A stretch of 64,000 nucleotides of DNA, taken from the NCBI RefSeq assembly GCF_007197575.1, contig NZ_CP041616.1, positions 372,001 through 436,000 of the forward strand, in the 5' to 3' direction. Shown here piece after piece: positions 4,709 to 61,361 of this stretch. The notes beneath the pieces are model-generated. The model ran no database searches and was not told the origin of the DNA. It was given only the letters and a program-made list of their open reading frames with translations. A program made the translations under genes and the position numbers. Position 1 is the stretch's first letter, and each line of letters opens with the position of its first letter. Origin of the DNA: Ornithinimicrobium ciconiae. Lineage in GTDB: Bacteria; Actinomycetota; Actinomycetes; Actinomycetales; Dermatophilaceae.

Positions 4709-5875
4709 TCAGCTGGAGAAGCGTGCTCTGCTGGGACCCCGCTGGGTCTGCAGGTCTCGAGCGACGGCCTCGGCGTCCCGCAGGGTGCGCAGCACGTTGG
4801 CGCCGGCGAGCTTCACGAGGTCAGCGTCGGACCAGCCGCGGTCGGCGAGGGCGGCGAGCAGTCGCGGATAGCCGGACACGTCCTCGAGGCCAACCGGCAG
4901 GCTGGCGACACCGTCATAGTCGCCGCCGAGCCCGATGTGGTCGATCCCCGCGACCTCCCGCAGGTGCTCGATATGGGTGACCACCTGCTCCAGGGTGGCC
5001 GGGGGGCGGGGGTGCGTGACGGCATACTGCTCGACCCAGGGCTCGAAGGCCTCCAGGTCGGTCGAGGCGATCCCCTCCTGTGCTGCGGCGGCGGCCGCCT
5101 CAACCTTCCAGTCCCACACCTGCGGGGAGACGAACTGCGGGGCGAAGACCGCCATGCAGGTGCCGCCGTTGCGGGCCAGCGTCTCCAGGACGTCGTCCGG
5201 GACATTGCGTGGGGTCGGACAGATCGCCCGGGCCGAACTGTGCGAGAAGATCACCGGCGACTCGGTCACTGCCAGGGCGTCGCGCATCGTGTCCGCCGAG
5301 ACGTGCGAGAGGTCGACGAGCATCCCGAGGCGGTTCATCTCCCGCACCACCTCTCGCCCGAAGTCGGACAGGCCACCGAGCACGGGCTCGTCCGTGGCCG
5401 AGTCCGCCCACGGCACGTTGTCGTTGTGGGTGAGCGTCAGATAGCGGACACCCAACCGGTGCAGGATCCGCAGTGCGCCGAGAGAGCAGCCGATGGAGTG
5501 CCCGCCCTCGGCCCCCATCAGGGACGCGATGCGACCCGAGGCGAAGACCGCGTCCACCTCGTCCGCCGTCGTAGCCAGTCCGAGTCGGTCAGAGTAGCGC
5601 TCCACCATGGCGTAGACCGCGTCGATCTGCTCCAGGGTCTGGATGACCGCCTGGTCGGGCTGCAGGGTCGAGGGGACGAAGACCGACCAGAACTGGGCGC
5701 CGACCCCACCGGCCTCCAGCCGAGGCAGGTCGGTGTGGTTGGGCGTGCTGCCCGCGATGTCGAGGGCGTCCCAGTCGTAGTCGACCAGAGCCCGGGCCCG
5801 CCAGGGCAGGTCGTTGTGGCCATCGACGAGGGGGTGCTGGCGCAGCAGGTCACGAAGTCGCTCGGTGGAGTTCAC
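4709..5875 (-). CDS. Membrane-dipeptidase-like zinc peptidase (family M19)
   Basis: This protein of about 388 residues belongs to the renal dipeptidase family, which hydrolyses dipeptides (often with a D-residue at the second position) using two zinc ions. The start of the barrel shows HNDLPW (the H-x-D metal pair). Further on are the bridging acid in GAEGGHS, then LSHVS and SHSSAR (zinc histidines), and GGDYDGV late in the protein. I chose the GTG at 5875 because homology begins just after it; an open frame extends further upstream but codes nothing recognisable. No signal peptide is visible, so it is probably cytoplasmic. It faces the gene before it and shares its terminator. Confidence 0.9.
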
Positions 5876-6022
5876 CCGATGAGTTTTATCACTGTCGGCG
5901 GTCAACCGTCGTGGCCAGGCCCGCCAGGAGCTGTCAGGACCCGCGCAGACGCGGGTGACTGTGCTGAACATAGTCCTGCAGGGGGATTCCCCCCGGTCTG
6001 CTGCAGGTCTAGGGTGTGCCAT

Positions 6023-7948
6023 ATGAAGGTAAAGGGGGCAGTACTCGTCGGCCTTGTCACGGCCGCGCTCACAGTGGCTCCGGCTGCGGGTGCACTCAGC
6101 AGCCCGTCGAGCAGTTCCGGTGCAGACGCATCGCACATCACCATGTCCGCCCTGGCCTCCGGCTCAGAAACCGCCGCCGGCTCCCTGGGCATCTCGCTCA
6201 ACGTCCTGGCCCACGCCGACGATGCATCGTCCGACCCGGGTTCGTCACCCGACGCCGGTTCGTCGCCCGACGCGGGTTCGTCGCCCGACGCGGGGGCGGG
6301 GCTGACGTCGGACACGACGGCCGTCGGCAAGGCGAGACTGGCCGGCACGGACCGCTACGGCACCTCGGTCGCGATCTCGAAGTGGACCTTCCCGCACCAG
6401 GGTGACGCGGACCGCGTCTACCTGGCCCGCGCGGACGTCTTCGCCGATGCACTCACTGCTGGCGTGCTCACGGACGGTCCGGTGCTGCTGGTCCCCGGCG
6501 ACTGCGGTGCCCCTCGCGCGGTGGTGCGCGCGGAGATCACCCGGCTGGATCCCGAGACGGTCGTGGCCCTGGGCGGCGAGGCTGCAGTGTGCCAGGCACA
6601 GCTCGAGGTGGCCGCCAACGGGCGCCCAGTCGAGCGGCTCACCGGCGAGAACCGGGCCGCCACCGCGGCCGCGATCGGACTCTATGAGTTCGCCGAGGGC
6701 ACCACGACGGTCTATCTCGCACGGGGCAACAGCTCCCCGGACGCGATGGTCGGCGGGATGCTGACCGACGGACCGATCCTGCTGACCAATCCCGACGGCA
6801 CCCACCTCCCGCAGGTGACGCGTGCCGCCATCGCCGAGCTGGACCCGGACCGAGTGGTCGCACTCGGCGGCACGACCTCGGTCAGCAACTACCTGCTGGG
6901 CCAGGCGGCTGATGGACGCGCGACGAGCCGGTTGGCCGGCACGGACCGTTACGCGACGTCGGTCAAGGTGGCCGACAACGCCTTCCCCGCCGGCAGCGAC
7001 CGGGTCTATATCGCCCGCGGAGACGGAGCCAACCTGACCGACGCGGTCGTCTCCGGCGTGCTCACCGACGGACCGGTGCTGTTGGTCAACGGCCCGTGCA
7101 TCAAGGTGCCCAACGTCATCCAGAAGTATCTTGCGGACAAGCAGCCCTCTGTCGTCGTGGCCCTCGGCGGCCAGGGCGCGGTCTGTCACCAGTTGCTGGA
7201 GGACGCGGCAGCGGCCGCGACACCCCCGCCGCCACCACCTCCACCACCTCCGCCTGGTCCCAACTGCGCCCAGGTCAGATGCGTGGCACTGACCTTCGAT
7301 GACGGCCCGTCGGCCTACACCACCCAGCTCGTCAATACCCTCGACGACCTCGACGTCCCGGCCACCTTCTTCGTGGTCGGCCAGATGGCCGACGCCCGGC
7401 CCAACACGGTGAAACGGTCCTACGACCACGGCTACCAGGTCGAGAACCACACCTGGAACCACCCGGAGATGAACACGCTCACGCTGACCCAGCAGCAGTC
7501 GCAGTACACCTCGACCCGCAACCTGCTGACCGGTCTGGGCATCGAGCCGACCGACATGCTGCGCCCGCCCTACGGGGCGTGGAACAGCAACACCCGCAAG
7601 CTGGGCGTCCCGCTGATCCTGTGGAGCATCGACACCCGTGACTGGGAGAACCGCAACACGGCCCAGATCCGGGCCAACGTCCGCAACAGCATCCACAACG
7701 GCGCGATCGTCCTCCAGCACGACACGATCCCCGAGTCGGTCGCAGCCGTCCCGGGCATCGTCTCGGACCTGCGGGCGCGGGGTTATCACTTCGTGACGGT
7801 GGAGGACCTGGTGCCGTGGGCCGGTCCGGGAGACCTGGTCTACTCCCGTGGCAATGTCGTCGACGCCACCGTCGAAGCTGAGCCGCAGGTCTTTGACGGC
7901 GCCGACTACGCGCCTCCGGTCGACGCGGCAGAGATGCCGGTGGAGTGA
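6023..7948 (+). CDS. Secreted polysaccharide deacetylase (CE4/NodB) with CWB2 repeats
   Basis: This is a 641-residue exported enzyme expected to remove N-acetyl groups from a surface polysaccharide or peptidoglycan. A signal peptide occupies residues 1-26. An acidic Ser/Pro linker with three DAGSSP repeats follows, then three CWB2 repeats (about 105-400; [23 protein letters not shown]). Next comes an 11-proline spacer and the NodB domain from about 420. That domain carries TFDDGP (catalytic Asp 426 and metal Asp 427), the metal histidines of NHTWNH (476 and 480), RPPYG, and LQHD late in the domain. The proline run probably projects the catalytic domain from the wall. The ATG at 6023 gives a clean signal peptide. 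The upstream gap 5876-6022 is AT-richer and serves two divergent genes. Confidence 0.93.
6239..6292 (+). repeat. 18-bp coding tandem repeat, three copies
   Basis: Three near-identical 18-base units encode repeated Gly-Ser-Ser-Pro-Asp-Ala in the linker between the signal peptide region and the CWB2 repeats of the deacetylase. Being in frame and nearly identical, it is likely to vary in copy number between strains. Confidence 0.85.
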
Positions 7949-10747: not shown

Positions 10748-11956
10748 ATGACCGCGCCCCTCCGTCGTGGATTTCCCGACGCCACTCCCGACGCCCGTGA
10801 CGCCACAACCCCGGCGGATCCGTTCGGGCTGCGTCGCCGGTTTGGCGCGCTGGACGGGTTGCGCGCGATCGGGGCGCTGATGGTGGTGCTCACGCACGTC
10901 TCGGCGCACACCGCCACCAGCTTCACCGAGCCGTTCGGTGGGATCCTGTCCCGTTTCGATGCCGGGGTGGCGCTCTTCTTCGTCATCTCCGGGTTCCTGC
11001 TCTACCGCCCGTATGTCGCGGCGCGGCTGACCGGGACGCCCTCTCCCGACATCCGTGGTTATCTCTGGCGCCGTGCCCTGCGCGTCCTGCCGGTGCTGTG
11101 GCTCGCCGTGGCCGGGGTCTGGGTCTTCTTCGACCACGGCACCCCGGCCAGCCTCTACCTACGGCACGCCGCCCTGATCCACATCTACTGGCCCGAGAAC
11201 TGGGTGCTCGGACTCACCCAGATGTGGAGCCTGGCGGTGGAGGCAGCCTTCTATGTCGCGCTGCCGTTGCTCGCCTGGTTGCTGGTGCGCACCGCCCGGG
11301 ACCCGTTGGCCTTCGTCCGGCGCAGCCTGCTGGTCCTGGTGCTGCTGGTCCTGGCCAGCCCGGTGTGGGTCTATGTCGTCACCGTTCTGGACCATGCCAC
11401 CGCCCCCCAGTGGCTGCCCGCCTATCTCGGCTGGTTCGCGGTCGGGATGGCTCTGGTGACCTGGCAGCAGGCCCGGTGTCTCGGCATACTCCCCAGCTCC
11501 TGGCTCGACGGGTGGGCCCGCCAGCCGGTCACCCTCTGGCTGTGTGCGCTCGCCGTCCTGGTGATCGCCGCGACCCCGGTCGCGGGTTCGCGGGGGTTGG
11601 CTGCGGCCGTGCCCGCGGAGGCGGCGTTCAAGAACCTGATCTATGCGGTCTTCGCGCTCCTCATGGTGCTGCCGTGCATCGCGGCTCTGCGCGGGCACGA
11701 GGACCCGTCGGCAGTCCGGGTCCTGTCCCGTGGCGTGGGCCGGTGGCTGGGTGACATCTCCTACGGGATCTTTGCCTACCACCTGCTGATCCTGGAGCTG
11801 GTCGGTCCGGTCGTCGGACACGAGAACTTCACCGGAGGCTTCTGGCGGTTGCTGCTGCCCACCCTGCTCATCACCATCCCGGTGGCCTGGGTGAGCTATC
11901 GCTACATCGAGAGGCCACTCATGCAGTGGGGGCGTCGGGTCTATCCGCGCCGCTGA
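10748..11956 (+). CDS. Acyltransferase-3 (OafA/YrhL) membrane protein
   Basis: This 402-residue integral membrane protein probably O-acylates a cell-surface sugar. The family start LDGLRAIGALMVVLTH carries the conserved His after the first helix. About ten hydrophobic helices follow, and the end SYRYIERPLMQWG is typical of the family. It lacks the SGNH hydrolase domain found in longer members. The gene lies in the envelope-glycan cluster opposite the DUF3068 gene, and its last 38 bases overlap the AftD-like gene on the other strand. The acyl group and sugar acceptor cannot be told from sequence. Confidence 0.9.
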   Translation: MTAPLRRGFPDATPDARDATTPADPFGLRRRFGALDGLRAIGALMVVLTHVSAHTATSFTEPFGGILSRFDAGVALFFVISGFLLYRPYVAARLTGTPSPDIRGYLWRRALRVLPVLWLAVAGVWVFFDHGTPASLYLRHAALIHIYWPENWVLGLTQMWSLAVEAAFYVALPLLAWLLVRTARDPLAFVRRSLLVLVLLVLASPVWVYVVTVLDHATAPQWLPAYLGWFAVGMALVTWQQARCLGILPSSWLDGWARQPVTLWLCALAVLVIAATPVAGSRGLAAAVPAEAAFKNLIYAVFALLMVLPCIAALRGHEDPSAVRVLSRGVGRWLGDISYGIFAYHLLILELVGPVVGHENFTGGFWRLLLPTLLITIPVAWVSYRYIERPLMQWGRRVYPRR

Positions 11957-14900
11957 CCGGCGGCCCCGCGCTGACCGGCGGCCCCGCGCTGACCGGCGGC
12001 CCGGCACTGTTCGGCGGCCTTGCACTGACGTGGCGTGCGGCACCGGCCAGTGCCAGCAGGATGGCCAGCAGGACGACCACCTGCGGCAGCACGTCGCTCG
12101 GCGCGCTCCCGTGCGGCGTGGGGCCGAGCCAGGTCAACAGGCCTGTGCCGACCAGTCCGACGACAGACACGACGGCGGGTGCGGCACGCGGCGGCGTCAG
12201 CCGCAGCACCCCGGCGGCGAGCAGCGCCAGACCCAGGCCCCAGAGCCCGGCGAACAGGATCGCAAACAGCAGCACGAGGCCCACCGCCTCGGGCACGTTG
12301 GGCGAGGCCGCCGGCAACGGTCGGACGGGCCGCCCTGGATGCCAGAGCGCCCCGGCTCCGAGCAGGGCCAGCAGGGCGAGGAAACCGGCACCCAGGCCGG
12401 CGCGGTAGGCGCCGTCCGGACCGAACGTCGCCTCGACCGTCCCCGCCGCACCGGCGGGCACGACGAAGCCCTGCTGCCAGCCGTCGACGACCAGTGGCGT
12501 CAACGGCGTGCGCTGTCCGTCCTCGGACACCAGCGTCGCGGACCAGCCCGCCCCGGCGTTCTGGGCGATCACGACGAGCGAGTCCGCCGGTCGCTCGGGC
12601 AGGGACACCTCCAGGGCGGCCGGGTCGGGCCGGGTCACCTCCAGGGGGATGCCCCGCGCAGCGCCCGCCGTGGGGATGCCCCGCGCAGCGCCCGCCGTGG
12701 GGATGCCCCGCACAGACCCGGCAGCCGAGTTGCTCGTCTCGGAGTCGACCCGCGTCAGCATGAGGGCGACCGGAACCCACTGTTCGGTCGCCTCGGCCAC
12801 CACGTCGTGCGCACCGGAGCCCAGGACGAGGGTGTCGTCGTCGGTGCACGGCACCCAGTCCAGCCGGGACCGCTCCAGCACCTGCCGCACCGTGCCGCTG
12901 ACGCGGGTCTGGATGGTCTGGTCCGCGACGATGACGTCGGGGCCCGAGCCGCACTCCAGCTGCAGATCGCGGTCGGGGTCGGGCAGCGCCAGGTCCTCCG
13001 CGCCGAGCAGGGTGAGCTCGCTGACACCGACCGGCAGGACCCGCAACGAGTCCGGCACGAGCGGGTCGACGGTCGTCACGGGGAAGGAGCCTCCGAAGGT
13101 GATCTCCACGGTGCTCACCTCGGTCTCCTCCCAGGTCACCGTGCTCTCCGCGCCGATGACACGCTCCATCGGCTCGCCACCGTCGAGACTGACGAGCAGC
13201 TCCGAGGGGTGACTGGCCGCCAGGAAGTAGTCACTGACCACCCGCAGCCCGCCGACCCGGCGAGGCTCGGGGAGCGTCAGGGTCAGGGTCGGTGAGCCGT
13301 CCAGCGCTCCGGCCACCCAGCCGGTGCCCGCATCGCCGTCCAGGACGGACTCCGGACGGGCATAGGGCGCCAGGACGTCGCGGGAGGAGGCCGTGACCTG
13401 CACCTGTCCCGGCACCCGCAGCAGTTCCTCGAGCGCGGTGCCGTCCACGGGCAGCACCTGACCGTGCACGGCATACTCCGCTCCGGTGTCGAGGGCGACG
13501 GTGCGCCGCAGACCGGCCGGCTCCTCCAGCGGCGCGGACTGAGCTCCGGCGCACAGCGGTCGCTGACCGAGCATCAGGCAGGCCGACCGGCCCAGCTGCT
13601 GGGCCCGCAGCGAGATCACCTCCACCTCGCCGGTGGCCGGACGGACCTGCAGGCTCGGAGCCACGGGGGTCAGTCCCGGCAGGTCCACCTCGGCCAGCGC
13701 CGCCGACCCGCCAGAGGCCGCGGACGCCTCGAGCACCGTCAGCCGCAGGGTGGCCGTCGACCCCTCTGGCAGGGCCAGTTCGTGCGTCAACCGTCCGGGA
13801 GTCATGGTGGTGGTCTCGGTGCCGGCGTCGGTCTCCACCTGCCAGGTCTGCACCGAGGCGTAGTAGGCCGGTGAGCCGACCCGGATCGTGAGGGTGCTGC
13901 CCAGGTCCTGGGGCTGCGTGAACTCCAGCTGCCACCACTGACCCACCGCACTGGTCCCGGCGCCGACCCACGCCGACGTCGCCGAGCCGTCAAGCGCGCG
14001 CCAGGGGTCGTGGCCCGCCTCGGTGGTGCCAAAGACGTCCGCGTCCGAGCGGGAGGAGGAGGCGGTCACCGAGGCGATCGGCTCCGGCCAGGTCAGGACC
14101 GCGGGGTCACCGAGTCCGGGCAGCAGGTAGTCGTTGACCGCCCGGGCCGGCATCTCCTCCGCGGCCGTCATCATGCCGGAGACATTGTCTGCGGCCTGCC
14201 CGAAGTTGACCGCCCGGCGCCGATACCCGTCGCTGACGACCGTGCCTGCCAGCTCTGCACCGCCCAGGGCGGCGTCGAGGTCACCGCCCAGGGCGCTGGC
14301 CGCGTCCTGCAGCAGGTATGCCGGGGCGCCAGCCACCAGCGCCGGCACGTCCTCCGGTCCACCGGTGAGCAGTTGGGTCTGGTCGAGCGGGACGAGCCGG
14401 GCGGGCGTCGGGTCCGGCACGGCATACACCTGCACCGAGGGGGTGGGCACGATGGTCCGCTGCCGGGTCGTGTGGGTGTCGGTCTCACCGGGTGGGCCGA
14501 CCGGCGGGCCGAAGTCACCCACGCGCTCCAGCCCCGCCGCCACCAGTGCCTGGTGCGGCGCGATCGGTGGCGTCTGCTGCGCGCCGAGGGTCAGGTCGTT
14601 GCGGACCACCACCCACCCGATGCCGCCACGGGCCAGGGCCTGCGCCAGGTCCGGCCCCCCGTCACCGGCGCCGATGCGGCGCTGGATCTCGTCCAGCCAC
14701 CGGGTCGAGCCGGCCCCGCCCAGCGGGACAGCGTCCCGCACCGCGAACGGGCGCTCCAACAGCGCCTGCAGCGGCTCGTCCCGGGTCACTCCCCAGGTGT
14801 GCTCAGCAAAGGGGGCCGCGGGGACCACCAGGACGGTGCCGTCCCCCGGCTGGGCGTCCAGCCAGTCGGCCGCCTCCACCCAGTGGGGCGCGATCTGCTC

Positions 14901-16238
14901 ATAACCGCCGGGCCGCGGCAGGGTCGAAGCCACGGCAGGTGCCCCGACCGCCACCACCAGGCAGGCGGTGGCGAAGGGCACCAGGGCGCGGTGCACCTGG
15001 GCGCGACGGGCCCAGCGGGTGGCCTGGGTCAGGGCGCTGGCCAGCAGCAGCACCAGCGGCAACCGCACGACCAGCTCGAACTTGTGGGTGTTGCGGAAGG
15101 CGGCCAGGGGCCCGTCGAGCAGGGACTGGACCGGCTCGGCCAGGACCCCCGCGAGGACCCCGGTGTGTCCCGCGCCGACCAGCAGCAGGCCGGTGCCCAG
15201 ACCCACGGCCAGGAACAGCCGGTGCGGCGTCCGGGCCACGGTCAGCATCACCAGACCGACCACGGCGATGATCAGGCTGGCGGCGATCAGGAGCCAGCTG
15301 TCGACATACTGCCTCCCGGCGGGCCAGCTCGGTCCGGAATGGGTGACCAGATAAAACAGCCAGTGCGTGGTGCCGCGCAGCGCCTCGGTCGGACCCGCGA
15401 CGAGGGTGGTGGTCCCGGCCGACTCGATCCAGTCCAGGAAGGGTGGGCTGTGCGCCCCCATCACCAGCAGCGGCACCAGCCACCACGCCATCGCCACGAC
15501 GACGGCAGCCAGCCACGCCAGCAGGGCGAGCAGCACCTCGCGGCTGAGGCGACGGGTCAGGAACCACAGGGTCGGCAGCACCAGCACCGCGCCGGTGGCG
15601 ACCGCGTTGACCCCGCCGACCAGCGCCACGGCGAGAGCCGACCGCCAGATCCGGCCCCACCAGGTCAGCGGCGCCCGGCTGACCAGCGGCAGCAGCACCC
15701 ACGGGGCCATCGCCATCGGCCACACCTCGACGGAGGTGATGGTCACCTCGCTGAGCATTCGCGGGGTCAGGGCATAGGCGAAGGCGGCGGCATAGGCGGC
15801 CCACGGTGACCCCATGCCCAGGGCGCGGACTAGCCGCCAGGCACCGAGGAAGGCGACGCACAGCACGACTGACCACCACAGGCGCTGGACCACCCAGGCC
15901 GGCAGACCCAGCTCGAGCAGCACGGCGTGAAAGGGCCCGACGGGCAGCAGATAGCCGTAGGCCTGGTTCTGCAGCTGGCCGAGGAAGCCGTGCGGGTCCC
16001 ACAGGTGCAACGACCGGGCGAGGAACCCGATCGGGTCGGCGGTCAGGTCGAGCTTGGTGTCCGGCACCACCAGTCCCGGCGCCTGCCGGAACATCAGGGC
16101 GGTCAGCGCCAGGCAGCCCAGCAACAGGCGGGCGGGCCAGGGGCTGGACCCCTGGGCGTATGCCGCACGCTCGCCCTTGTCGTCGGCGTCCGGTCTGCTG
16201 GGGGGCGGGTCCGTGAGCTGCTCAGGGGTGCGGCTCAC
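11919..16238 (-). CDS. AftD-like alpha-(1->3)-arabinofuranosyltransferase family protein
   Basis: This 1439-residue protein has a GT-C type membrane N-terminus (about 30-430, many helices) with the VPDTKLDL acid motif in the first loop. A large extracytoplasmic region (about 430-1290) with discoidin/CBM-like beta domains (CBM in the DUF3367 family) follows, and the C-terminus is again hydrophobic. Mycobacterial AftD adds branching arabinofuranose to arabinogalactan and lipoarabinomannan using decaprenyl-phospho-arabinose. Organisms like this one usually lack mycolic acids, so the acceptor may differ. It starts with a 4-base overlap with the methyltransferase stop, so the two are probably cotranscribed. 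Two in-frame repeat tracts lie near the C-terminus. Confidence 0.85.
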   Translation of the reverse strand: MSRTPEQLTDPPPSRPDADDKGERAAYAQGSSPWPARLLLGCLALTALMFRQAPGLVVPDTKLDLTADPIGFLARSLHLWDPHGFLGQLQNQAYGYLLPVGPFHAVLLELGLPAWVVQRLWWSVVLCVAFLGAWRLVRALGMGSPWAAYAAAFAYALTPRMLSEVTITSVEVWPMAMAPWVLLPLVSRAPLTWWGRIWRSALAVALVGGVNAVATGAVLVLPTLWFLTRRLSREVLLALLAWLAAVVVAMAWWLVPLLVMGAHSPPFLDWIESAGTTTLVAGPTEALRGTTHWLFYLVTHSGPSWPAGRQYVDSWLLIAASLIIAVVGLVMLTVARTPHRLFLAVGLGTGLLLVGAGHTGVLAGVLAEPVQSLLDGPLAAFRNTHKFELVVRLPLVLLLASALTQATRWARRAQVHRALVPFATACLVVAVGAPAVASTLPRPGGYEQIAPHWVEAADWLDAQPGDGTVLVVPAAPFAEHTWGVTRDEPLQALLERPFAVRDAVPLGGAGSTRWLDEIQRRIGAGDGGPDLAQALARGGIGWVVVRNDLTLGAQQTPPIAPHQALVAAGLERVGDFGPPVGPPGETDTHTTRQRTIVPTPSVQVYAVPDPTPARLVPLDQTQLLTGGPEDVPALVAGAPAYLLQDAASALGGDLDAALGGAELAGTVVSDGYRRRAVNFGQAADNVSGMMTAAEEMPARAVNDYLLPGLGDPAVLTWPEPIASVTASSSRSDADVFGTTEAGHDPWRALDGSATSAWVGAGTSAVGQWWQLEFTQPQDLGSTLTIRVGSPAYYASVQTWQVETDAGTETTTMTPGRLTHELALPEGSTATLRLTVLEASAASGGSAALAEVDLPGLTPVAPSLQVRPATGEVEVISLRAQQLGRSACLMLGQRPLCAGAQSAPLEEPAGLRRTVALDTGAEYAVHGQVLPVDGTALEELLRVPGQVQVTASSRDVLAPYARPESVLDGDAGTGWVAGALDGSPTLTLTLPEPRRVGGLRVVSDYFLAASHPSELLVSLDGGEPMERVIGAESTVTWEETEVSTVEITFGGSFPVTTVDPLVPDSLRVLPVGVSELTLLGAEDLALPDPDRDLQLECGSGPDVIVADQTIQTRVSGTVRQVLERSRLDWVPCTDDDTLVLGSGAHDVVAEATEQWVPVALMLTRVDSETSNSAAGSVRGIPTAGAARGIPTAGAARGIPLEVTRPDPAALEVSLPERPADSLVVIAQNAGAGWSATLVSEDGQRTPLTPLVVDGWQQGFVVPAGAAGTVEATFGPDGAYRAGLGAGFLALLALLGAGALWHPGRPVRPLPAASPNVPEAVGLVLLFAILFAGLWGLGLALLAAGVLRLTPPRAAPAVVSVVGLVGTGLLTWLGPTPHGSAPSDVLPQVVVLLAILLALAGAARHVSARPPNSAGPPVSAGPPVSAGPPVSGADRPDAPTA
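11952..12005 (-). repeat. 18-bp tandem repeat at the acyltransferase/AftD junction
   Basis: Three 18-base units (GCTGACCGGCGGCCCCGC with one variant), plus a degenerate fourth up to 12023, code for repeated Ser-Ala-Gly-Pro-Pro-Val at the AftD C-terminus. The first unit contains the stop codon of the convergent acyltransferase gene. The repeat therefore sits exactly where the two genes meet. Confidence 0.8.
12646..12714 (-). repeat. 27-bp coding tandem repeat within the AftD-like gene
   Basis: Two full 27-base units and a partial third encode Arg-Gly-Ile-Pro-Thr-Ala-Gly-Ala-Ala repeated in a linker between the extracytoplasmic beta domains. The unit length keeps the reading frame. The near-identity of the copies suggests recent slippage or a variable linker. 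Confidence 0.8.
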
Positions 16239-17066: not shown

Positions 17067-18254
17067 ATGCGGATCGCCCTGTGCAACTGGCGCGATCTCG
17101 CGCACCCTGAGGGCGGCGGGGCTGAGCTCTATGCGCGGATGGTCGCCGAGGGACTGGCCGCTGCCGGGCACGACCTCACCTTCCTGTGCGCGGCGCACGA
17201 CAACGCGCCAAAGGAGGAGCACCACAACGGGGTGCGCTATCTGCGGGCCGGGTCCCGCACGGGCGTCTATGCCGCGGCCCGGCGCGCGATCCGCCGGCTC
17301 GAGGCCACCGAGGGACGGTTCGACGTGGTGGTCGACGTGCAGAACGGCCTGCCCTTCTTCGCCGGCTGGGCCACGCAAGCCCCTGTCGTCGTGCTCGTCC
17401 ACCACGTGCACCGCGAGCAGTGGCCGGTCGTCTTCAGCCCCCCTGTGGCAGCGCTGGGCTGGGGCATCGAGTCCCGGGTCTCCCCGCGCCTCAACCGCGG
17501 ACGGCAGTATGTCGCTGTCTCCCGCTCCACCCGCGACGAGCTGGCCGAGCTGGGGGTCGAGCCGCGCCACGTCGCGATCATCCACAACGGGACGCAGCCG
17601 CCACCGCAGGTCACCGCCGAGCAGACCGAGGGACCGCACCTGGTGGTGCTGGGCCGGGTCGTGAAGCACAAGCGGATCGAGCACGCGATCGACCTCACCC
17701 GTCGGCTGCGTGACCGGCACCCGGGTCTGCGTCTGCGGGTGGTCGGCGACGGCTGGTGGCGCGACGAGGTGCGCGACTACGTCGCCGCCTGCGGCGCGCA
17801 GAAGTATGTCGACCTGCTGGGTTTTGTTGACGAGGAGACCAAGCACCGCGAGCTGGCGGCTGCCTCCCTGCTGCTGGTGCCCTCGGTCAAGGAGGGCTGG
17901 GGTCTGTCGGTGGTGGAGGCCGCCAGCCACGGGGTGCCGGCGATCGGCTACCGCGGAGCGGGTGGGGTCTCGGAGTCGATCGAGGACGGCACGACCGGGC
18001 TGCTGGTCGACGACCTCGAGGAGATGACGGCGGCGGTCGATGGACTGCTCACCGACCCGGACACCCTCATCCGCCTGGGCAACAACGCCCTCGCCCATGC
18101 CGCACGCTTCACCTGGGACGAGACCGTGCGTGCCTGGGAGCACCTGCTCCTGCGCGCGTCCTGGGGCCACGACCCGACGGCCCTCGGCGATCACGAACAC
18201 CCCGTCCCATCGGCTAACCTTTCCATCAAATCAGCAACCCGGAGGTCCTCATGA
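17067..18254 (+). CDS. Glycosyltransferase family 4
   Basis: This 395-residue GT-B glycosyltransferase probably transfers a sugar to an envelope glycan or lipid precursor at the cytoplasmic membrane face. The N-terminal half begins MRIALCNWRD with a Gly-rich loop (EGGGAE). The C-terminal half shows GRVVKHKRIEHAI and the nucleotide-sugar motif PSVKEGWGLSVVEAASHG, with the E-x7-E pair. It diverges from the methyltransferase and overlaps the DUF2613 micropeptide start by 4 bases. The intergenic region at 16985-17066 contains a TACTAT element that could be a -10 box, but no good -35 is visible. Confidence 0.9.
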   Translation: MRIALCNWRDLAHPEGGGAELYARMVAEGLAAAGHDLTFLCAAHDNAPKEEHHNGVRYLRAGSRTGVYAAARRAIRRLEATEGRFDVVVDVQNGLPFFAGWATQAPVVVLVHHVHREQWPVVFSPPVAALGWGIESRVSPRLNRGRQYVAVSRSTRDELAELGVEPRHVAIIHNGTQPPPQVTAEQTEGPHLVVLGRVVKHKRIEHAIDLTRRLRDRHPGLRLRVVGDGWWRDEVRDYVAACGAQKYVDLLGFVDEETKHRELAAASLLLVPSVKEGWGLSVVEAASHGVPAIGYRGAGGVSESIEDGTTGLLVDDLEEMTAAVDGLLTDPDTLIRLGNNALAHAARFTWDETVRAWEHLLLRASWGHDPTALGDHEHPVPSANLSIKSATRRSS

Positions 18255-18439: not shown

Positions 18440-18567
18440 ATTTTCCGAGAGGTTTGGTAGGTCTCCCCCGCCTTTTTGGAGGGGTTTCGTAGGTCTCTTC
18501 CGCCTTTTCCGAGAGGCTTTGTAGGTCTCCCACACCTTCTCGGAGAGGTTTCGTAGGTCTCCCACGC
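18440..18567. repeat. 32-bp tandem repeat array, four copies
   Basis: Four consecutive 32-base units start at 18440, 18472, 18504 and 18536. Each carries a GGTTTCGTAGGTC-like core flanked by GAGA and TCTC, which can pair. The array begins three bases after the DUF2613 stop and fills most of the gap before the convergent membrane-protein gene. Units differ at several positions, so it is not a recent duplication. A related two-unit array lies at 50590-50653, also between convergent genes. Confidence 0.9.
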
Positions 18568-18610
18568 CGTCTGGGGAATTCAGGCCGCTGGACTGCGCCG
18601 GGTTGAGGGG

Positions 18611-21755: not shown

Positions 21756-22881
21756 GGGATACCTCCAGGACGGTGCCTCCGGTCGGTCCCGGGGTCAGGG
21801 TGATGGTGCCTCCTGCGGCGGCAACCCGCTCTCGTATGCCGCGCAGGCCGTTGCCCTCCCGGCGACCGACGGCACCGCGCCCGTCGTCGGCCACCACCAA
21901 CCGCCCCGGGCCCAGCTCGACGGTGCACCGGGTGGCGCCGCTGTGCCGCACCACATTGGTGACCGCCTCGCGCAGCACCCATGCCGTCAGCACCCGGTGC
22001 CGGGGGTCGACGTCCGAGAGGTCCTCTGGCAGGTCGGCCTCGATCCCGGCGTCGGTCAGTGCCGCGTCGGCGGCTGCCACCTCGTCCGCCAGGCTCGCGA
22101 CCCGCAGGCCACTGACGGTCGCCCGGATCTCGGCCAGCGCGACCCGGCTCAACGCCTGGATCTGTGCCAGTTCCTCCCGGGCGCGCACGGGGTCGGTCTC
22201 GATGAGCCGCTCGGCGAGCTCGGCCTTGACGGTGACCACGGTGAGGCTGTGCCCGAGGACGTCGTGGACGTCCCGCGCGACCCGGTCGCGCTCGGCGGCC
22301 AGGGCCAGCTCGGCCTGCGCCGCCCGGTGGACGTGGCCCCGCTGCTCGACGATGCGGACCAGTCCGGTGGACAGTGCCACCAGGGAGACGATGAGGATGA
22401 AGTACCAGTCCTCGGTGAGTGACCCCACCGCGAGCGGGACGATGATGCAGAGCAGGACCGCGCCCACCGCTGTCGCGAAGGCCCAGGTCAACGGCAGGCT
22501 GAACATCGCCAGGGCCACGATGTAGGGCAGATGGGACAGAGAGCCCACGCCGAGCAGCGGGGTCAGCGCCAGGGCGATCAGCGCCATGACCGCCAGGTGG
22601 CGCAGACCGGTGCGCACCACCTGGTCCCAGGTGTCCACCCCGCTGATGACGATGAAGCACCGCAGATAGACCGCCGCGAAGGTGAGGATCCCGACGATCC
22701 CGAGCACCCGCCATACGGTCGGAGCCTCGCCCGTGGCCAGCGCGATGATCGGGAAGGCCAGGAAGACCAGCCAGATCGCGCCCATCAGCCAGCCGAACCG
22801 CTCCCAGGGGTCGACCGTCGAGGAGGGGGTCGCTGCCTGGGCCATGGCACGAGCCTGCCGCATCGACCTCGACGGTGCCAC
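21748..22881 (-). CDS. DesK-like sensor histidine kinase (HisKA_3)
   Basis: This is the partner kinase of the following response regulator. The N-terminus has about five or six membrane helices (30-180) with no large external loop, so it probably senses the membrane itself. The HisKA_3 phospho-acceptor is in ERDRVARDVHDVLGHS, around residue 205. The ATPase has an N-box NVVRHS, then DDGRG and NGLRGIRERV. The start is uncertain: GTG at 22881 or ATGs at 22863 and 22845, and none has a good ribosome-binding site. The gene diverges from the nucleotidyltransferase gene. Confidence 0.9.
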   Translation of the reverse strand: MAPSRSMRQARAMAQAATPSSTVDPWERFGWLMGAIWLVFLAFPIIALATGEAPTVWRVLGIVGILTFAAVYLRCFIVISGVDTWDQVVRTGLRHLAVMALIALALTPLLGVGSLSHLPYIVALAMFSLPLTWAFATAVGAVLLCIIVPLAVGSLTEDWYFILIVSLVALSTGLVRIVEQRGHVHRAAQAELALAAERDRVARDVHDVLGHSLTVVTVKAELAERLIETDPVRAREELAQIQALSRVALAEIRATVSGLRVASLADEVAAADAALTDAGIEADLPEDLSDVDPRHRVLTAWVLREAVTNVVRHSGATRCTVELGPGRLVVADDGRGAVGRREGNGLRGIRERVAAAGGTITLTPGPTGGTVLEVSLD

Positions 22882-31608: not shown

Positions 31609-32697
<1,089 letters not shown>

Positions 32698-34085: not shown

Positions 34086-34192
34086 AGGCCGCCCCGGGAC
34101 CACGGCATACTGACCCCGGCGGGGGCGACCTGACTCACGGGGCAGGTGGGGGAACCGATCCGAGACTGCGCCCGTCGCACTGACCCAACGAA

Positions 34193-42267: not shown

Positions 42268-42392
42268 CTGATTGGGATATATCGGGCCGTCTAGCGTGAG
42301 GGTGAGAGTCCGGCATACTGCGTGATCGACACACGATGGGGATGTATGTCAAAATCTCAGGTTTCCGATAGATCTCCGGATACGCTGCGATC

Positions 42393-46879: not shown

Positions 46880-47668
46880 ATGCCAACCTTCGGTCGGGAC
46901 GATGACCTGCAGGGCGCCGAGTTCGTCCGCGCCGACCTCACCGGGGCCCGCTTCGAGCGCACCAGGCTCACGGGCGCCCGGGTGGTCGCGAGCGACCTGA
47001 CGGGCCTGGTGGTCCGTGGCAGCGATGTGCTGAATGTCGAGATCGACTCCCCGTGGTTGGCGGAGGGCGACTTCTTTCGAGTCAACGGCGTCGATGTCAT
47101 CCCACTCATCGAGGCAGAGCTCGACCGCCGCTTCCCGGGCCGGAAGCTGCGCCGAGCCGCCGACCCTGAGGGGTTGGCCGCGGCCTGGTCCGCGCTCGAG
47201 AGCACCTGGGCGGCCACGCTCGACCGAGCGAGCCGTATGCCGGCGGGGACCGTCAACGCCTCGGTGGACGGTGAGTGGTCGCTCGCCGAGACGCTGCGTC
47301 ACCTGGTGATGGCCACTGACACCTGGCTGGGCAAGGCTGTGCTGCGTGCAGCGCGGCCCTACCATCCGCTGGCTCTGGCCAATGCCGGTGCCGAGGAGGA
47401 CGGTCTGGACATGTCGGTCTTCACCACCGGCACGCCGTCCTACGAAGAGGTGCTCACGGCTCGTGCGGACCGGACCACGATGGTGCGCGAGTTCATCGCT
47501 CGGGTGAGTCCCGGCATACTCGCGGAGGAGCGCACCAACCCGTGGGCACCAGAGCATCCGGAGACGGTCCTTTCCTGCCTGCACACGATCCTCGAGGAGG
47601 AGTGGGAGCACCACCGCTATGCCGTGCGTGACCTGGATGCTCTCGAGTCCGCCGGAGATAGCCCCTGA
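46880..47668 (+). CDS. Pentapeptide-repeat plus DinB-family protein
   Basis: This is a 262-residue protein. Residues 8-50 are pentapeptide-like (LQGAEFVRADLTGARFERTRLTGARV). From about 95 a DinB four-helix bundle follows, with metal-type histidines in LRHLVMATD and EEEWEHHRYAV. DinB-fold enzymes include thiol-dependent transferases (bacillithiol/mycothiol S-transferases), so it may detoxify electrophiles; the catalytic reaction is unknown. The ATG at 46880 follows AGGAGAG at good spacing. It diverges from the MurB-like gene and faces a small gene downstream. Confidence 0.88.
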   Translation: MPTFGRDDDLQGAEFVRADLTGARFERTRLTGARVVASDLTGLVVRGSDVLNVEIDSPWLAEGDFFRVNGVDVIPLIEAELDRRFPGRKLRRAADPEGLAAAWSALESTWAATLDRASRMPAGTVNASVDGEWSLAETLRHLVMATDTWLGKAVLRAARPYHPLALANAGAEEDGLDMSVFTTGTPSYEEVLTARADRTTMVREFIARVSPGILAEERTNPWAPEHPETVLSCLHTILEEEWEHHRYAVRDLDALESAGDSP

Positions 47669-48897: not shown

Positions 48898-48899
48898 CG

Positions 48900-49472
48900 A
48901 TGGCTGGCGAGGCGTCCGCGATCTACACCAAGACCGGTGACGACGGCACGACCGGGAGGCTGTTCGGTGGCCGACTGGGCAAGGATGACGCACTGGTCGA
49001 AGCGTGTGGAGACACGGATGAGGCAGTGGCGGTCCTCGGGGGCGCCCGTCAAGCGCTGGGCGACGAGGGTGACGCCGCGCTTGCCGAGCTCGTGCTGAGG
49101 CTGCAGCGTGAGCTCTTCGTCGTGGGCGCCGACCTGATGACCAACCCCCGCGCCCGGGACCGGGGCACGCCGGGTCAGTCCCAGGTCAGTCCGGGGATGA
49201 TCGACGCCCTGGAGCGGACGATCGATGACCTCGTCGCAGAGCGTCCGCTGCAACCCGTGTTCATCGTCCCGGGCGCCACGCGCGCGTCGGTCGCCCTCGA
49301 TGTGGCGCGCACCGTCGTGCGACGGGCCGAACGGCATACCATCGCCGCGGCGCGGGCCGGGGCCGACGTCTCCGACCAGGTCCTCGTCTATCTCAACCGG
49401 CTCAGTGACCTGCTCTTCGTGCTCGCAAGGCGGGCGGCAGGGGAGGTCCAGGAGCCGCCGAGCCATGACTGA
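48900..49472 (+). CDS. PduO-type cob(I)alamin adenosyltransferase
   Basis: This enzyme transfers the adenosyl group of ATP to cob(I)alamin, making coenzyme B12. The 190-residue protein has the ATP loop YTKTGDDGTTGRLFGG at the start and the second block VPGATRASVALDVARTVVRRAER, with the conserved Arg and Asp-Arg-like elements. The helical-bundle end is YLNRLSDLLFVLARR. It is cotranscribed with the flavin reductase. A B12-dependent enzyme or salvage pathway must be elsewhere, since no cobalamin synthesis genes are in the window. Confidence 0.95.
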   Translation: MAGEASAIYTKTGDDGTTGRLFGGRLGKDDALVEACGDTDEAVAVLGGARQALGDEGDAALAELVLRLQRELFVVGADLMTNPRARDRGTPGQSQVSPGMIDALERTIDDLVAERPLQPVFIVPGATRASVALDVARTVVRRAERHTIAAARAGADVSDQVLVYLNRLSDLLFVLARRAAGEVQEPPSHD

Positions 49473-52691: not shown

Positions 52692-55600
52692 ATGGCAGCA
52701 ACGGGGACCGAGCACAGCGCCCACAACCCATCCGGAGCGTTTGGCGAGGCGCTCACGACACTGCGACTCCAGGCTGGCCTGTCCGTGCGAGAGCTCTCGC
52801 GCCGGACCGGCATCCCGTCCGGGACGCTCGGAGGATACTTCAGCGGACGACACCTGCCACCGGCCAACCGTCCGGAGGTCCTCGAGGCGATCGTGACCAC
52901 CTGCGGAGGCACCGCACAGGACGTCGAGGACTGGCGCGCGCGGCTGGTCGACCTGCATCAGGGACGGCGCAGCACAGTGGTGATGCGTCCTCCCTATCGC
53001 GGACTGGCCGGCTTCGGGGTGGAGGATCAGGACCTCTTCTTCGGCCGGGCCGACCTGACCCGTCAGCTGCTCGACCATGTCACGAGCGCCGCCACCCGAG
53101 GCAGCATCGTCCTCGTGGTCGGTGCCTCGGGGACCGGCAAGTCCTCCCTGCTCCGGGCAGGTCTGATCCCCGCCCTGCAGCGACCGGCCCTGGCGCGGGA
53201 CGGCTGGCAGTGTGAGCTGATCACTCCCGGTGTTGAGCCGGCGGCGAACGTCGAGAGGGCTCTCGATCGGCTGAAGAGCAGCCCTCGGGCAGTGCTGGTC
53301 GTCGACCAGTTCGAGGAGTTGTTCACCCTCACCTCGGACGACGACGAGCAGACAGCCACGGTGAAGCGACTGGTCGGGTGGGCAGAGCAGACGACTCCGG
53401 AACGGACCCGGGTGCTGGTGATCGGGCTGCGCGCCGACCGTTATGGCGAGGCGGCGGCACAGCCGGGTCTGGTGACCGGTCTGCGGGACCATCAGGTCCT
53501 GGTGCCGCCGATGAGTGAGGAGGAACTGCGCACCGCGGTCGAGGGCCCGGCCGAGGTCGTCGGCCTTAAGCTCGAGTGGGGGCTGGTGGACGTCATCCTG
53601 TCCGACGTGCGGGCCAGTGACATCACACATGTGCTGCCGCACCTGTCACACACCCTGCAGGCAGCCTGGGAGGACAGTGACCGGCGGCAACTGAGGATCC
53701 GGGACTACAAGGCGGTCGACGGGGTGGCCGGGGCAGTGCGGCGCAGCGCCGAACGGGCCTTTGCCGAGCTGGACGAGGAGGGCCAGGAGGTGGCCCGCAG
53801 CATCATCCTGCGCCTGATCGCCCTCCACCCCGACGCCGGCCCGAGCCGGCGCAGTCAGATCACGGCCGATCTGGTCCGCAGCCACCCCCGCGCCGGCCAG
53901 GTGCTCGACCACCTCATCGACCACCGCCTGCTGACCTCCAGCCAGACCGAGGTGTCGTTGAGCCATGAGGCGCTCATCGCGGCCTGGCCACGGCTGGGGC
54001 AGTGGCTCGACGCCGACCGCTCCGACCTGTTGTTGCGGGAGATGCTCGCCCGCCAGGAGCACACCTGGGCCGAGCACGGACAGGACCCAGAACTCCTGCT
54101 GCGGGGCAGCCTGCTGGAGGCGGTGCGGACCTGGATGCTGACGAACGCCAGCCAGCTCACCGAGGCCGAGACGGCCTACGTCGAGGCGAGCGAGGCCCAG
54201 GCACTGCAACGACGCCGGGAGCGGGGTCGTCAGCACCGTCGGACGCAGCAGCTGCTGGCCGCCGCGGTGTGCCTGGCCCTGGTCGCGGCGCTCGCCGGGG
54301 CGTTTGCCCTGCAGAGCCGCAGCACGGCCGCGACCCAGCGGGACGAGGCCAGGTCTCGCCAGATGGCGCGGGTGGCGGCCACCCTCCAGGAGAACAACGT
54401 CCCGCTGGCCAACCAGGTGGCGCTCGGTGGCTATCAGATCTCCGACACCCGTGAGTCCCGCTCCGCCCTGATCGACGCGACCTCGCTGCCCGTCATGACC
54501 CGGCGGGTGGACCCCGGCGCCCCGCTGACAGCCACCGCGAACGAGACCGGTGACCTGCTCGCGTTCGGCGGCAACGATGGTGCTGTTGACCTCGTGCGGG
54601 TTGACGGGGACCGGATGCAGGACGCCGCCACCGTGACCCTGGACGAGGACGGCACGACGGTGCAGACGGTGGCCTTTGGGGTCGAGGGTCGCCTGCTCGC
54701 GGTGGGCGGCGGGGCCCCCAACGTCCGGCTGTTCGACGTCACCGACCCGGACTCGCCGGTGCTCAGCGCCGAGCTTGCCGTCGACCGGACCGTCTTCGAC
54801 CTCGCCTTCTCCCCGGACGGCAGCCGGCTGCTGGCCGCCGGCGACGAGGATGCGCAGGGCGACGCACAGATCCTGACCTGGACGTATGCCGACGGTCAGT
54901 GGGTGGAAGCAGACCCGGTGGAGGGAGTCTCCGGGTCGATCCGGGGCCTGGACCTGGACGCTGACGGAGGACAGCTGGCGGCGGCGACCACGGGGGGGAA
55001 TCTCTATCTGTGGGCGGTGTCCGACGTCGGCCTGACCGAGACCGCACAGGTGCATGTCGGGGAGGACTCGACGCGGCAGTTCGACATCGACCTCAGCCCC
55101 GACGGCACGCACCTGGCTGCGGTCGGCAGCGACAAGACGCTGCGCCTCTTTGACATCACCGAGGACGGTGCCCTGGAGCCGCTCGCTGAGCTGCCGGATT
55201 TTGACAGCTGGGTCAACTCTGTGTCCTTCACGCCCGACGGTCGCAGCGTCGTCGCGGGCAGCTCGGACAGCACGCTGCGCCTCTACGACATTCCCGACAG
55301 TGGCGCAGCCGCAGCGGTGCGGTCGGTGCTCCCGGTGAGCGCTGCGGTCACCTCGGTCGAGGAGGTCGACGAGGAGCGGATGATCATCACGACGACCGAC
55401 ACCTCGTCCTACCTGTGGCATCGCACCGAGGGCGTGCTGCCGCTGTCTGGGGACACCGTCTTCATCACCGCAGCATCGTCGGACGGCTCCCGGTCCATCA
55501 CCTCCTCCGGCACAGCCGACGGGCACCTCTATCTGTGGGACACCACGCAACCGCGCACCCCTGTGCTCCTCGCCCCGCTGCTGGCGCCGGCGAGTGCTGG

Positions 55601-56502: not shown

Positions 56503-56859
56503 GTGCGTCTCATCTGTTTCCGAACCCTGCCGGTCCCTCGTCAGCGCTCCGGACCCGCGTGGGCGTTCGGCCTGCTCACGGTCGCTGTGCTGTCGGGGTG
56601 TGGTGGAGGGGTCCCGTTTGCTGCCGGGTCGACCACCTGCTTCGCCTTCGGTGAACTGTCCCTGACCGAGCGCACCGCCCTCTTGGCGGAGTTGCTGGTG
56701 GAAGCGGGACTCGACCCCCACGCGCAGGGGAACGAACTCGGCATACGCACAGCGGTCGACGACTTCTGCGGCTCCGCGACCGTCCCCCTCAGTGGGGCCA
56801 GCCGCAACCTGGACGAGCCGATCCTGGATGCCGTGGACTGGGACGCCGAGAGCTGGTGA
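56503..56859 (+). CDS. Small lipoprotein with a two-cysteine helical domain
   Basis: This 118-residue protein (GTG start after TAGGAA) has a lipoprotein signal with lipobox LSGC near residue 32. A short helical domain TTCFAFGELSLTERTALLAELL to VDDFCG follows, bracketed by two cysteines. That layout resembles small HdeA/DUF732-like domains. Function is unknown. It sits between the STAND-WD40 gene and the propeller protein gene on the same strand. Confidence 0.7.
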   Translation: MRLICFRTLPVPRQRSGPAWAFGLLTVAVLSGCGGGVPFAAGSTTCFAFGELSLTERTALLAELLVEAGLDPHAQGNELGIRTAVDDFCGSATVPLSGASRNLDEPILDAVDWDAESW

Positions 56860-59875: not shown

Positions 59876-60017
59876 CGACTGATCGCGGGCGTCTCACCGG
59901 CGTCACCCTTCACCCCGACTGCGTGTGGTCTCACCTGCGGCACACGGTTGCAGTCGCGGCTGCGTGTCTCATCGACCTCTCATCTGCCTGTTGTTAAGTT
60001 GCTCGTTCAATGAGTAG

Positions 60018-61226
60018 GTGCAGGTGAGTCAGATGCTGCCACGTGGGGCTCGGTCCCTGTGGTCGGATGTCAGCGGCACGGCCAGACGGGGGGTCGCGCC
60101 GCTGGTGCGGCGGGTCCGGACCTTGGTCCGCCCGGGTGAGGGACGGCATACGCCTGCCGACCGGGTCCACCTCAGTCAGGTGGACCGGGCCGCTGTCGCG
60201 TTGGAGGTCCTCCGTCAGATCGAGCGACGGGAGCCGGCGCTGCCCACGGCCCGGGAGCCTCGGGAGTTCCTCGTCCGCGACCGGGCGGTGCGTCGGCCCG
60301 GCCCGCCCGACGACCTGCGCACCATGCTGCCGGCGCCGCTGCGGGGCGAGTGGGATCACACCCAGCCTGATTTGCGGCGCGTCACCGCACGTGTGGCGGC
60401 CGACGTGATCGTCCGCGCGAAGTTCGACCTGGGTGAGCAGGTCAAGCTGCGCGCTGCCTACGGCACGCAGCGACGCACGGTGGCCGTGCAGCCGGTGCGA
60501 CCCAATGGCACCTGTGGGATCACGAACGCCGTCCGCGCCCACGAGGTCGTCAATCGCTATGCACCCGGCCTGGTCCCGGTGATGCGAGGCCATGGCGAGG
60601 TCGGACCTGGTCTGCGCTACCTGGTGGAGGACTGGGTCGACGGGGTGCCGCTGGCCAACTCCCAGCGCATGGCCGAGAAGATGTCCTTCATCCTCGAGGG
60701 GCTCGACCGCGTGCACGAGGGCTACGGCGTGCACACCACCCGGGCCAGTGAGATCTGGCCCGCGGGGTTCCGGGAGCAGTGGCAGAGCGTGCGGGAGGCG
60801 GAGCTGGTCCCTGTCGACGTCGGTGACTGGGTGGCTGGCCTCCTCGCCGCGGACAAGCTGCTGCGGGTCTCCTGGTCACACGGCGACCTGGTCGCCTCCA
60901 ACGTGCTCGGCACCGACGACGGTGTCGTCCTCATCGACTGGGAGCACTCCGGTGAGCGTCCGCTGATGCACGACGCCGCCAAGCTGCACCTCTTTGCCGC
61001 GGACAAGGACGCGCTGCTCGGCACGCTCCTGGTGGAGTGGGGCGGCTCCGAGGACTCAGGTGGTTACACGCCTGCCGAGGAGTTGGCGCTCGTGCATGCC
61101 CGCTTCCTTGCGCGGGCGCCGGTCAGGATGGCCGAGCTGGCCGGCCACAAGCGGCAGGGCGTCCATGCCCGTCAGGTGAAGCGGCAGGTCGGTCGCCTCG
61201 CCGACGTGCTGGAGCTGGCCGGCTGA
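60018..61226 (+). CDS. Aminoglycoside-phosphotransferase-fold kinase
   Basis: This 402-residue protein (GTG start) has a C-terminal APH/choline-kinase-like catalytic core: the catalytic loop SWSHGDLVASNVLG and the metal motif VLIDWEHSG. The N-terminal 140 residues are basic and lack a recognisable domain, and no canonical ATP-lysine/G-loop is obvious. Members phosphorylate sugars, choline or antibiotics; the substrate here is unknown. There is no membrane segment or neighbour to place it in a pathway. Confidence 0.8.
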   Translation: MQVSQMLPRGARSLWSDVSGTARRGVAPLVRRVRTLVRPGEGRHTPADRVHLSQVDRAAVALEVLRQIERREPALPTAREPREFLVRDRAVRRPGPPDDLRTMLPAPLRGEWDHTQPDLRRVTARVAADVIVRAKFDLGEQVKLRAAYGTQRRTVAVQPVRPNGTCGITNAVRAHEVVNRYAPGLVPVMRGHGEVGPGLRYLVEDWVDGVPLANSQRMAEKMSFILEGLDRVHEGYGVHTTRASEIWPAGFREQWQSVREAELVPVDVGDWVAGLLAADKLLRVSWSHGDLVASNVLGTDDGVVLIDWEHSGERPLMHDAAKLHLFAADKDALLGTLLVEWGGSEDSGGYTPAEELALVHARFLARAPVRMAELAGHKRQGVHARQVKRQVGRLADVLELAG

Positions 61227-61361
61227 GGCGAGTTGCCGGCATACCGCGCGATGAGGGGTGTTGCGTCGACACTGTCGGTGCGCCGTGCTTGAGTTGGTCA
61301 CCACGATCCCGTATGCCGGTCGGCCCGTTGACTGACCGGTCGCCGACCCGAGGAGACCAGT

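Follow-up and report, generated by a model that had tools for sequence, protein, structure and literature searches.

A lineage-variable octamer in Ornithinimicrobium and its relatives as a putative DNA-uptake sequence

A 64-kb stretch of an Ornithinimicrobium genome (positions 372001–436000 of G000, 4,092,907 bases in one contig; hereafter, the window) contains 30 exact copies of the octamer CGGCATAC. The enrichment is a DNA-level signal that extends throughout this genome and is family-wide but not universal among its relatives, and some lineages without CGGCATAC carry another word at similar density. We consider it probable, from comparisons of sequence, that CGGCATAC is a DNA-uptake sequence with lineage dialects, in which position 3 is loosely read (CG[G>N]CATAC) and the flanks are lineage specific. 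The pattern resembles an ‘own-DNA’ password, in a bacterial group for which the literature searched describes none.

The word in the window and across the genome

A sequence-only reading of the window had reported at least 30 copies; exactly 30 are present (16 on the plus and 14 on the minus strand), each at its listed position, with no further ones. The span proposed for them, 5020 to 61318, does hold real copies but starts too late, omitting the copy at 1235 from the same list. The claimed over-representation holds against 1.19 expected copies in 100 dinucleotide shuffles (largest count 4). It also holds against a Markov model of order 3 fitted to the window, of the kind named beforehand as one that might predict about 30 copies, which yields 1.6 (z 22). 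Under this model, none of the other octamers among the 2447 with eight or more window copies is as extreme as CGGCATAC. Models of order 4, 5 and 6 predict more (5.6, 15.2 and 25.6, respectively) because, trained on the same sequence, they absorb the word. The density of the whole genome predicts 27.3 copies, and the window is thus typical of it. As also described earlier, copies occur in all reading frames and between genes: 25 lie, in both orientations and every codon phase, within coding sequences (CDSs) called with our own simple caller, and five lie outside. The copies and a class of near-copies are as follows.

1235–1242, minus strand, CGGCATAC copy
5020–5027, plus strand, CGGCATAC copy
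11482–11489, plus strand, CGGCATAC copy
13469–13476, plus strand, CGGCATAC copy
14316–14323, minus strand, CGGCATAC copy
14420–14427, plus strand, CGGCATAC copy
16158–16165, minus strand, CGGCATAC copy
21834–21841, minus strand, CGGCATAC copy
23354–23361, minus strand, CGGCATAC copy
26141–26148, plus strand, CGGCATAC copy
26220–26227, minus strand, CGGCATAC copy
29627–29634, plus strand, CGGCATAC copy
30208–30215, minus strand, CGGCATAC copy
31065–31072, plus strand, CGGCATAC copy
31794–31801, minus strand, CGGCATAC copy
32715–32722, plus strand, CGGCATAC copy
33947–33954, minus strand, CGGCATAC copy
34103–34110, plus strand, CGGCATAC copy, outside called CDSs
40580–40587, plus strand, CGGCATAC copy
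40836–40843, minus strand, CGGCATAC copy
42311–42318, plus strand, CGGCATAC copy, outside called CDSs
43184–43191, minus strand, CGGCATAC copy
47235–47242, minus strand, CGGCATAC copy
47512–47519, plus strand, CGGCATAC copy
49332–49339, plus strand, CGGCATAC copy
54884–54891, minus strand, CGGCATAC copy
56739–56746, plus strand, CGGCATAC copy
60144–60151, plus strand, CGGCATAC copy, outside the simple caller’s CDSs yet within the open reading frame (ORF) 60018–61226
61237–61244, plus strand, CGGCATAC copy, outside called CDSs
61311–61318, minus strand, CGGCATAC copy, outside called CDSs
Within 1710–62419, 16 near-copies that are degenerate at position 3 (CG[A/C/T]CATAC), with start positions 1710, 3795, 11011, 15302, 17507, 17804, 20563, 22709, 30097, 35400, 44117, 45344, 50215, 55739, 58362 and 62412

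Genome-wide, G000 holds 1745 copies of CGGCATAC, or about one per 2.3 kb, compared to 153 of the reversed word (80 plus and 73 minus). The word is non-palindromic and equally frequent on both strands (889 and 856), and it falls evenly on the leading (85) and lagging (79) strands in 400 kb sampled, with replichores assigned by hand from a weak GC skew, in agreement with the earlier statement that strand skew is not strong. The gene dnaA was not seen in the first 3 kb of the record, the sole stretch inspected for it.

Variants were counted in 444 kb of G000, comprising 19 spread stretches and the window. This sample contained 181 exact copies. The third-order expectation is 11.7; the fourth-order model, which takes up part of the word itself, gives 35.2. 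Position 3 was loose, with observed over expected counts of 34/9.4 for CGA, 26/9.5 for CGC and 39/10.3 for CGT; the CG[A/C/T]CATAC class as a whole is thus about threefold enriched, and its individual members are candidates. Replacement of the final C by G was also tolerated (43 versus 15.5 expected), smaller excesses were found for AGGCATAC (8 versus 4.2), CGGCATCC (76 versus 45.5) and CGGCCTAC (34 versus 19.7), and the remaining one-base variants showed a smaller excess or none. Flanking preferences are weak: G000 favors C at −2 and A/T at −1, and G166, G188 and G155 favor G at −1. The G000 sample revealed no longer repeat around the word, with little conservation past two flanking bases.

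Codon usage was assessed with 20 synonymous codon shuffles of the CDSs in a 464-kb sample of G000, where 165 of 192 copies are coding. The shuffles gave 28.6 coding copies (maximum 39), and the ratio of observed to shuffled counts was 5.8 in G000, 10.4 in G034 and 11.9 in G166, which upholds the earlier contention that codon bias is no explanation. All six phase–orientation classes are inflated in G000, from 3.6-fold to 29-fold and least in the codon-favored class. The site conservation check proposed by the sequence-only reading was performed in the comEC region of five congeners at ~80% DNA identity: 86 of 140 pairwise site comparisons, which are not independent of each other, were conserved, as opposed to 27% of 12,857 same-phase control windows.

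Distribution and replacement words

In a survey of 186 genomes of the family, 108 carry at least 100 copies of CGGCATAC per Mb (median 447, up to 1356; all outnumber the reversed word 2.5-fold or more), 13 carry 40–100 and 65 fewer than 40. Eighteen of 53 genera are uniformly low, while g1, g30 and g58 mix high and low genomes. Within Ornithinimicrobium, 30 of 31 genomes are enriched, the exception being G022 with 50 copies, and four named 21-kb loci of the genus contain 3, 5, 2 and 12 copies. A survey of the class covered 394 genomes, eight of them from this family; by eye, none of the other 386 exceeds about 55 copies per Mb. G054, which belongs to another family and was included in another survey, reaches 62 per Mb, but there the reversed word is commoner (184 versus 167).

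Sampling genomes without CGGCATAC turned up other words. The clearest replacement is CGAAGGGGG, with 797–1939 copies in 16 of 16 g52 and three of three g61 genomes and at most 80 in the other 167 of the family; the same 19 genomes hold 7–41 copies of CGGCATAC. In 160 kb of G108, 53 copies of CGAAGGGGG lie in CDSs, compared to 6.7 by synonymous shuffling. Among the Tad and neighboring proteins compared, g52 and g61 are mutual nearest relatives, so that a single switch to CGAAGGGGG suffices. Within genus g58, CGCCGTAC and CGGCATAC exchange (3117 and 19 copies in G140, 193 and 3681 in G141, 429 and 1062 in G142). CGCCGTAC is also raised (964–1824) in G059, G060, G068, G069, G071, G144, G145, G146 and G168. 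With a cut of 900 copies, chosen by us, nine of the ten CGCCGTAC-rich genomes, including G140, have at most 55 copies of CGGCATAC per Mb, and G168 holds both words.

Beyond the family, 31 of the 33 genomes in family f19 carry at least 1000 copies of CGGCATCC (up to 4831, counted by eye), over a background of 200–900 in many other genomes. Ten genomes outside f19 also pass 1000 by eye, namely the 3.5-Mb genome G031 and nine larger ones (4.4–9.4 Mb). Family f19 is probably Microbacteriaceae, because named Microbacterium loci show CGGCATCC too, with 283 copies in CDSs versus 102 by shuffling. In named Nocardioides loci, CG[G/C/T]CGTAC occurs at ~2.6 times the null, and several rarely expected phases are raised ~8-fold or more. 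These sets, 26 Microbacterium and 19 Nocardioides loci, are subsets of 80 pooled by genus name, with two Marmoricola-labelled loci left out. Codon pairs contribute to both words, and the case for them is weaker than for CGAAGGGGG and CGCCGTAC.

Two weaker words were measured in sampled loci. GCCGCTAC is over-represented in loci of G022 (L036, L229–L233), where 10 of 27 copies fall in the small intergenic part, and could represent either a further dialect or a short repeat between genes. CGGTCTAC, at 5.7 times the synonymous null in loci of G065 (L194–L197, L238–L241), a genome without CGGCATAC enrichment, is a possible further dialect. No clear word emerged from the 80–100 kb sampled in G205 and G031, yet G031 has 1336 copies of CGGCATCC genome-wide. 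Most dialects share the skeleton CG-N-C-R-T-M-C (CGGCATAC, CGNCGTAC, CGGCATCC). On balance we lean slightly toward regarding the dialects as an old, widespread code by which actinomycetes recognize their own DNA during uptake, which would be the first of its kind in monoderms. Homologous receptors would read them, with preferences drifting at word positions 5 and 7 and, now and then, a wholesale switch (CGAAGGGGG, in one sister-genus pair).

Pair orientation, acquired DNA and competence genes

Neighboring copies of CGGCATAC tend to face in opposite directions. Among 39 pairs within 500 bp in G000, 31 are inverted and eight direct (p 0.0003). Seven other CGGCATAC-carrying genomes gave 81 inverted and 27 direct pairs out of 108 at this distance, and 15 and one, respectively, within 50 bp. 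Further congeners showed 11 inverted versus five direct neighbors, which is not significant, and no orientation effect was found beyond 1 kb in G000 and the seven genomes. In the same eight genomes (G000 and, for the other seven, L202–L220, L044 and L045), opposite-facing neighbors predominate within 1 kb. Neisseria uptake sequences favor inverted pairs.

The word is scarce in the acquired DNA examined. In the Ornithinimicrobium genomes G002 and G017, comEC is split by insertions of ~40 kb (G002:C1 1161102–1202035, with L037, L225, L226 and L038; G017:C46 68443–109701, with L039, L227, L228 and L040). Both insertions contain integrase, terminase and tail genes, identifying them as prophages, and head, portal and helicase genes occur in one or the other. 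They hold three copies of CGGCATAC versus 12.6 expected (G002) and two versus 17.1 (G017), at similar G+C content. An island in G000 (L034, G000:C1 3800001–3820000) has none versus 8.5 expected; it encodes a type I methylase, a serine recombinase and an FtsK-like protein, along with two large proteins that matched no Pfam family. A further stretch (L031), with a P-type ATPase and an AAA protein and not clearly acquired, has one. These two were chosen as the sparsest of 20 G000 stretches (counts 0 to 16), and the Poisson value for L034 is therefore post hoc. Integrative elements of Neisseria have been found through the same kind of word scarcity (PMC7371117).

Genes for a transformation machinery are widespread. 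G000 encodes a 346-aa ComEA with SLBB and HhH domains and an 863-aa ComEC in adjacent intact ORFs, as well as tadA (T2SSE)-like, tadB-like and tadC (T2SSF)-like ORFs. ComEC was matched in 55 of 58 relatives by a model that also matches 10 of 14 control genomes. ComEA was found in 181 of 186 family genomes, and 168 of 186 have a Tad-type ATPase that scores above the curated cut-off; at E 0.001 the ATPase count rises to 184 of 186, but 13 of 14 control genomes match at that threshold too. Loss of competence genes was rejected as the cause of missing words, these genes being too widespread. N_methyl-family type IV pilins gave no match in 31 of 31 Ornithinimicrobium genomes, which led us to reject a ComP-type type IV pilus receptor. 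A comparison of Tad loci for a dialect-specific pilin yielded nothing decisive because the small genes are too divergent and the CGAAGGGGG genera are mutually nearest relatives. Micrococcus luteus, an actinobacterium, needs tad genes for transformation (PMC4322843).

Two further comEC genes are irregular. In the congener G014 (L041 8936–11038), comEC gave two partial matches that overlap, and some of the gene is absent, which suggests that it is broken. In G022, the congener without CGGCATAC, comEC (L036, G022:C11, 8504 bases) runs to the contig end, and the rest of the Pfam domain was not found in the assembly; the gene may be broken or interrupted by an assembly gap, which look the same here.

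The uptake reading and its rivals

We infer that CGGCATAC acts in DNA uptake, that a protein of the uptake machinery reads it and that uptake bias maintains it. In the proposed mechanism, a DNA-binding part of the transformation machinery (ComEA/ComEC) would prefer DNA carrying the word, with a Tad/Flp-type filament like that of Micrococcus luteus probably delivering the DNA to it. Kin DNA would thereby enter and recombine at a higher rate, and copies would build up across the genome. Where the receptor preference shifts in a lineage, the old word would decay and a new dialect grow (CGAAGGGGG, CGCCGTAC, CGGCATCC). Such uptake would account for the missing replication polarity, the independence from codons, the site conservation, the opposite-facing neighbors, the switches that follow phylogeny and the scarcity in acquired DNA. 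Among the three roles suggested by the sequence-only reading, an uptake-like signal fits best because of the lineage dialects, the absence of strand skew, the scarcity in the acquired DNA examined and the presence of competence genes; a repair motif of the RecBCD Chi type is contradicted and a methylation-linked motif stays a rival.

Several observations weigh against uptake. Scarcity in acquired DNA and site conservation fit other genome-wide words, including the rivals below, and the scarcity rests on three segments, of which the island was picked for its sparseness. Pairs within 500 bp are about as numerous in G000 as chance predicts (39 against 36.1), and CGGCATCC in Microbacterium shows no orientation effect (45 direct, 51 inverted). 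In some of the 108 enriched genomes the margin over the reversed word is no more than 2.5-fold. Presence of the machinery is no predictor of the word, since ComEA and the Tad ATPase also occur in genomes without CGGCATAC. In G002, G017 and G014 comEC is interrupted, yet they keep 1351–1520 copies. Genes for a DUF4244 pilin and TadE, which follow tadABC in G010, do not lie beside tadABC in G000 and were not located. Uptake sequences are described as under-represented in coding sequence (PMC7811141), and the intergenic preference here is mixed. By the simple gene caller, CGGCATAC in G000 is sparser between genes (0.30 per kb) than within them (0.44 per kb), as is CGAAGGGGG in G108 (0.25 versus 0.39), whereas intergenic density is fourfold above coding density in G166 (3.47 versus 0.85) and weakly so in G034. 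Lastly, no receptor was found for the putative uptake signal.

The strongest rival is a HIP1-like motif, in which a lineage-specific orphan methyltransferase and biased mismatch repair would create and maintain the word and a change of enzyme would change it; it ranks so because HIP words also replace one another. Cyanobacterial HIP1, a very frequent palindromic octamer, gives way to different words in certain lineages, and its distribution follows that of methyltransferases (PMC4390886); the dialect exchange seen here (CGAAGGGGG, CGCCGTAC) looks similar. We still judge such a motif unlikely, as the four clear words (CGGCATAC, CGAAGGGGG, CGCCGTAC, CGGCATCC) are non-palindromic and the three interior substitutions at position 3 are about equally enriched, which points to tolerated reading rather than one-mismatch repair. 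CGAAGGGGG is also long for a methylation site. Recombination offers another model: RecBCD Chi sites are octamer-sized, non-palindromic and over-represented, Chi words differ between lineages, and CGGCATAC shares the length, the lack of palindromy and the over-representation, at about one copy per 2.3 kb in G000. However, the leading-strand share of CGGCATAC is 85/164 (95% interval 0.44–0.60), compared to ~0.75 for Chi in E. coli. RecC had no match in the strongly enriched genomes G033, G034 and G035 from other genera (2288, 3111 and 939 copies of CGGCATAC) and is present in the unenriched G022. RecBCD Chi was rejected on this RecC distribution and the missing strand bias, and a Chi-like site read by a different nuclease, such as AdnAB, appears improbable.

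A binding site for a nucleoid or chromosome-organizing protein or a global regulator would explain the genome-wide spread and the positions conserved between species. We give it little credence, given that 165 of 192 copies in the G000 sample lie in CDSs, that the swap within genus g58 would require a change of the whole binding system and that the word is low in 65 of 186 family members. Least credible by far is an origin in base composition or codon pairs, or in a small mobile element repeated across the genome. Reverse phase 2, the most often expected, does hold 78 of 165 coding copies, but other phases are inflated more (13 versus 1.7, 35 versus 1.8, 26 versus 0.9 and 12 versus 2.3), little sequence is conserved past two flanking bases and many genomes of the same family lack the word. 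Codon bias was discarded because the synonymous shuffles were exceeded, and a mobile repeat because the flanks are not conserved.

Known systems provide parallels to the dialects described here. The DNA uptake sequence (DUS) of Neisseriaceae, read by ComP, is likewise a short non-palindromic word in very many copies, with dialects that follow phylogeny (PMC3630211), and is scarce in integrative elements (PMC7371117). Unlike the DUS, the present words of 8–9 letters start with CG, occur in monoderm, high-G+C Actinomycetota, are known from sequence data and, in the genus, are accompanied by no N_methyl type IV pilin match. The uptake signal sequence of Pasteurellaceae is also dense, not an inserted element and under-represented in newly acquired segments (PMC7811141); it has AT-rich flanking segments, in contrast to the weak one- or two-base flanks here, and is an unrelated sequence from another phylum. 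In contrast to RecBCD Chi, CGGCATAC lacks strand polarity and is also enriched in genomes that gave no match to RecC. In Micrococcus luteus, an actinobacterium whose transformation depends on Tad/Flp, comEA, comEC and tad genes likewise occur together, and the term ‘uptake sequence’ is absent from the main text of that paper (PMC4322843). Strong uptake sequence preference is described from two Gram-negative families (PMC7811141), and for mycobacteria a published account notes that none has been reported (PMC10526031). Searches of open-access literature returned no uptake sequence for Actinomycetota among the matches listed, and CGGCATAC as text gave none on topic, judged by title, among the matches listed.

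If correct, uptake through CGGCATAC and its dialects would be a third, independent case of uptake preference, with exchangeable dialects, in high-G+C monoderm bacteria, and sequence-coded preference for kin DNA would have evolved more widely. It would predict natural transformation in many untested genera, make the word a marker of recently acquired DNA in these genomes and perhaps explain the poor entry of foreign DNA into some actinomycetes. Because the words are short, the claim is directly testable with labelled DNA fragments.

Two further features of the window were noted. CAGATAG/CTATCTG is over-represented, with 21 places from 1052 to 58032; by eye, the copies inspected resemble the codon pair TAT-CTG, and it is not a top word in a 380-kb genome sample. 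In addition, a tandem array of four 32-base units, A+T-richer than the window, occupies 18441–18568 between the 3′ ends of convergent ORFs (17067–18254, plus strand; 18611–20269, minus strand).

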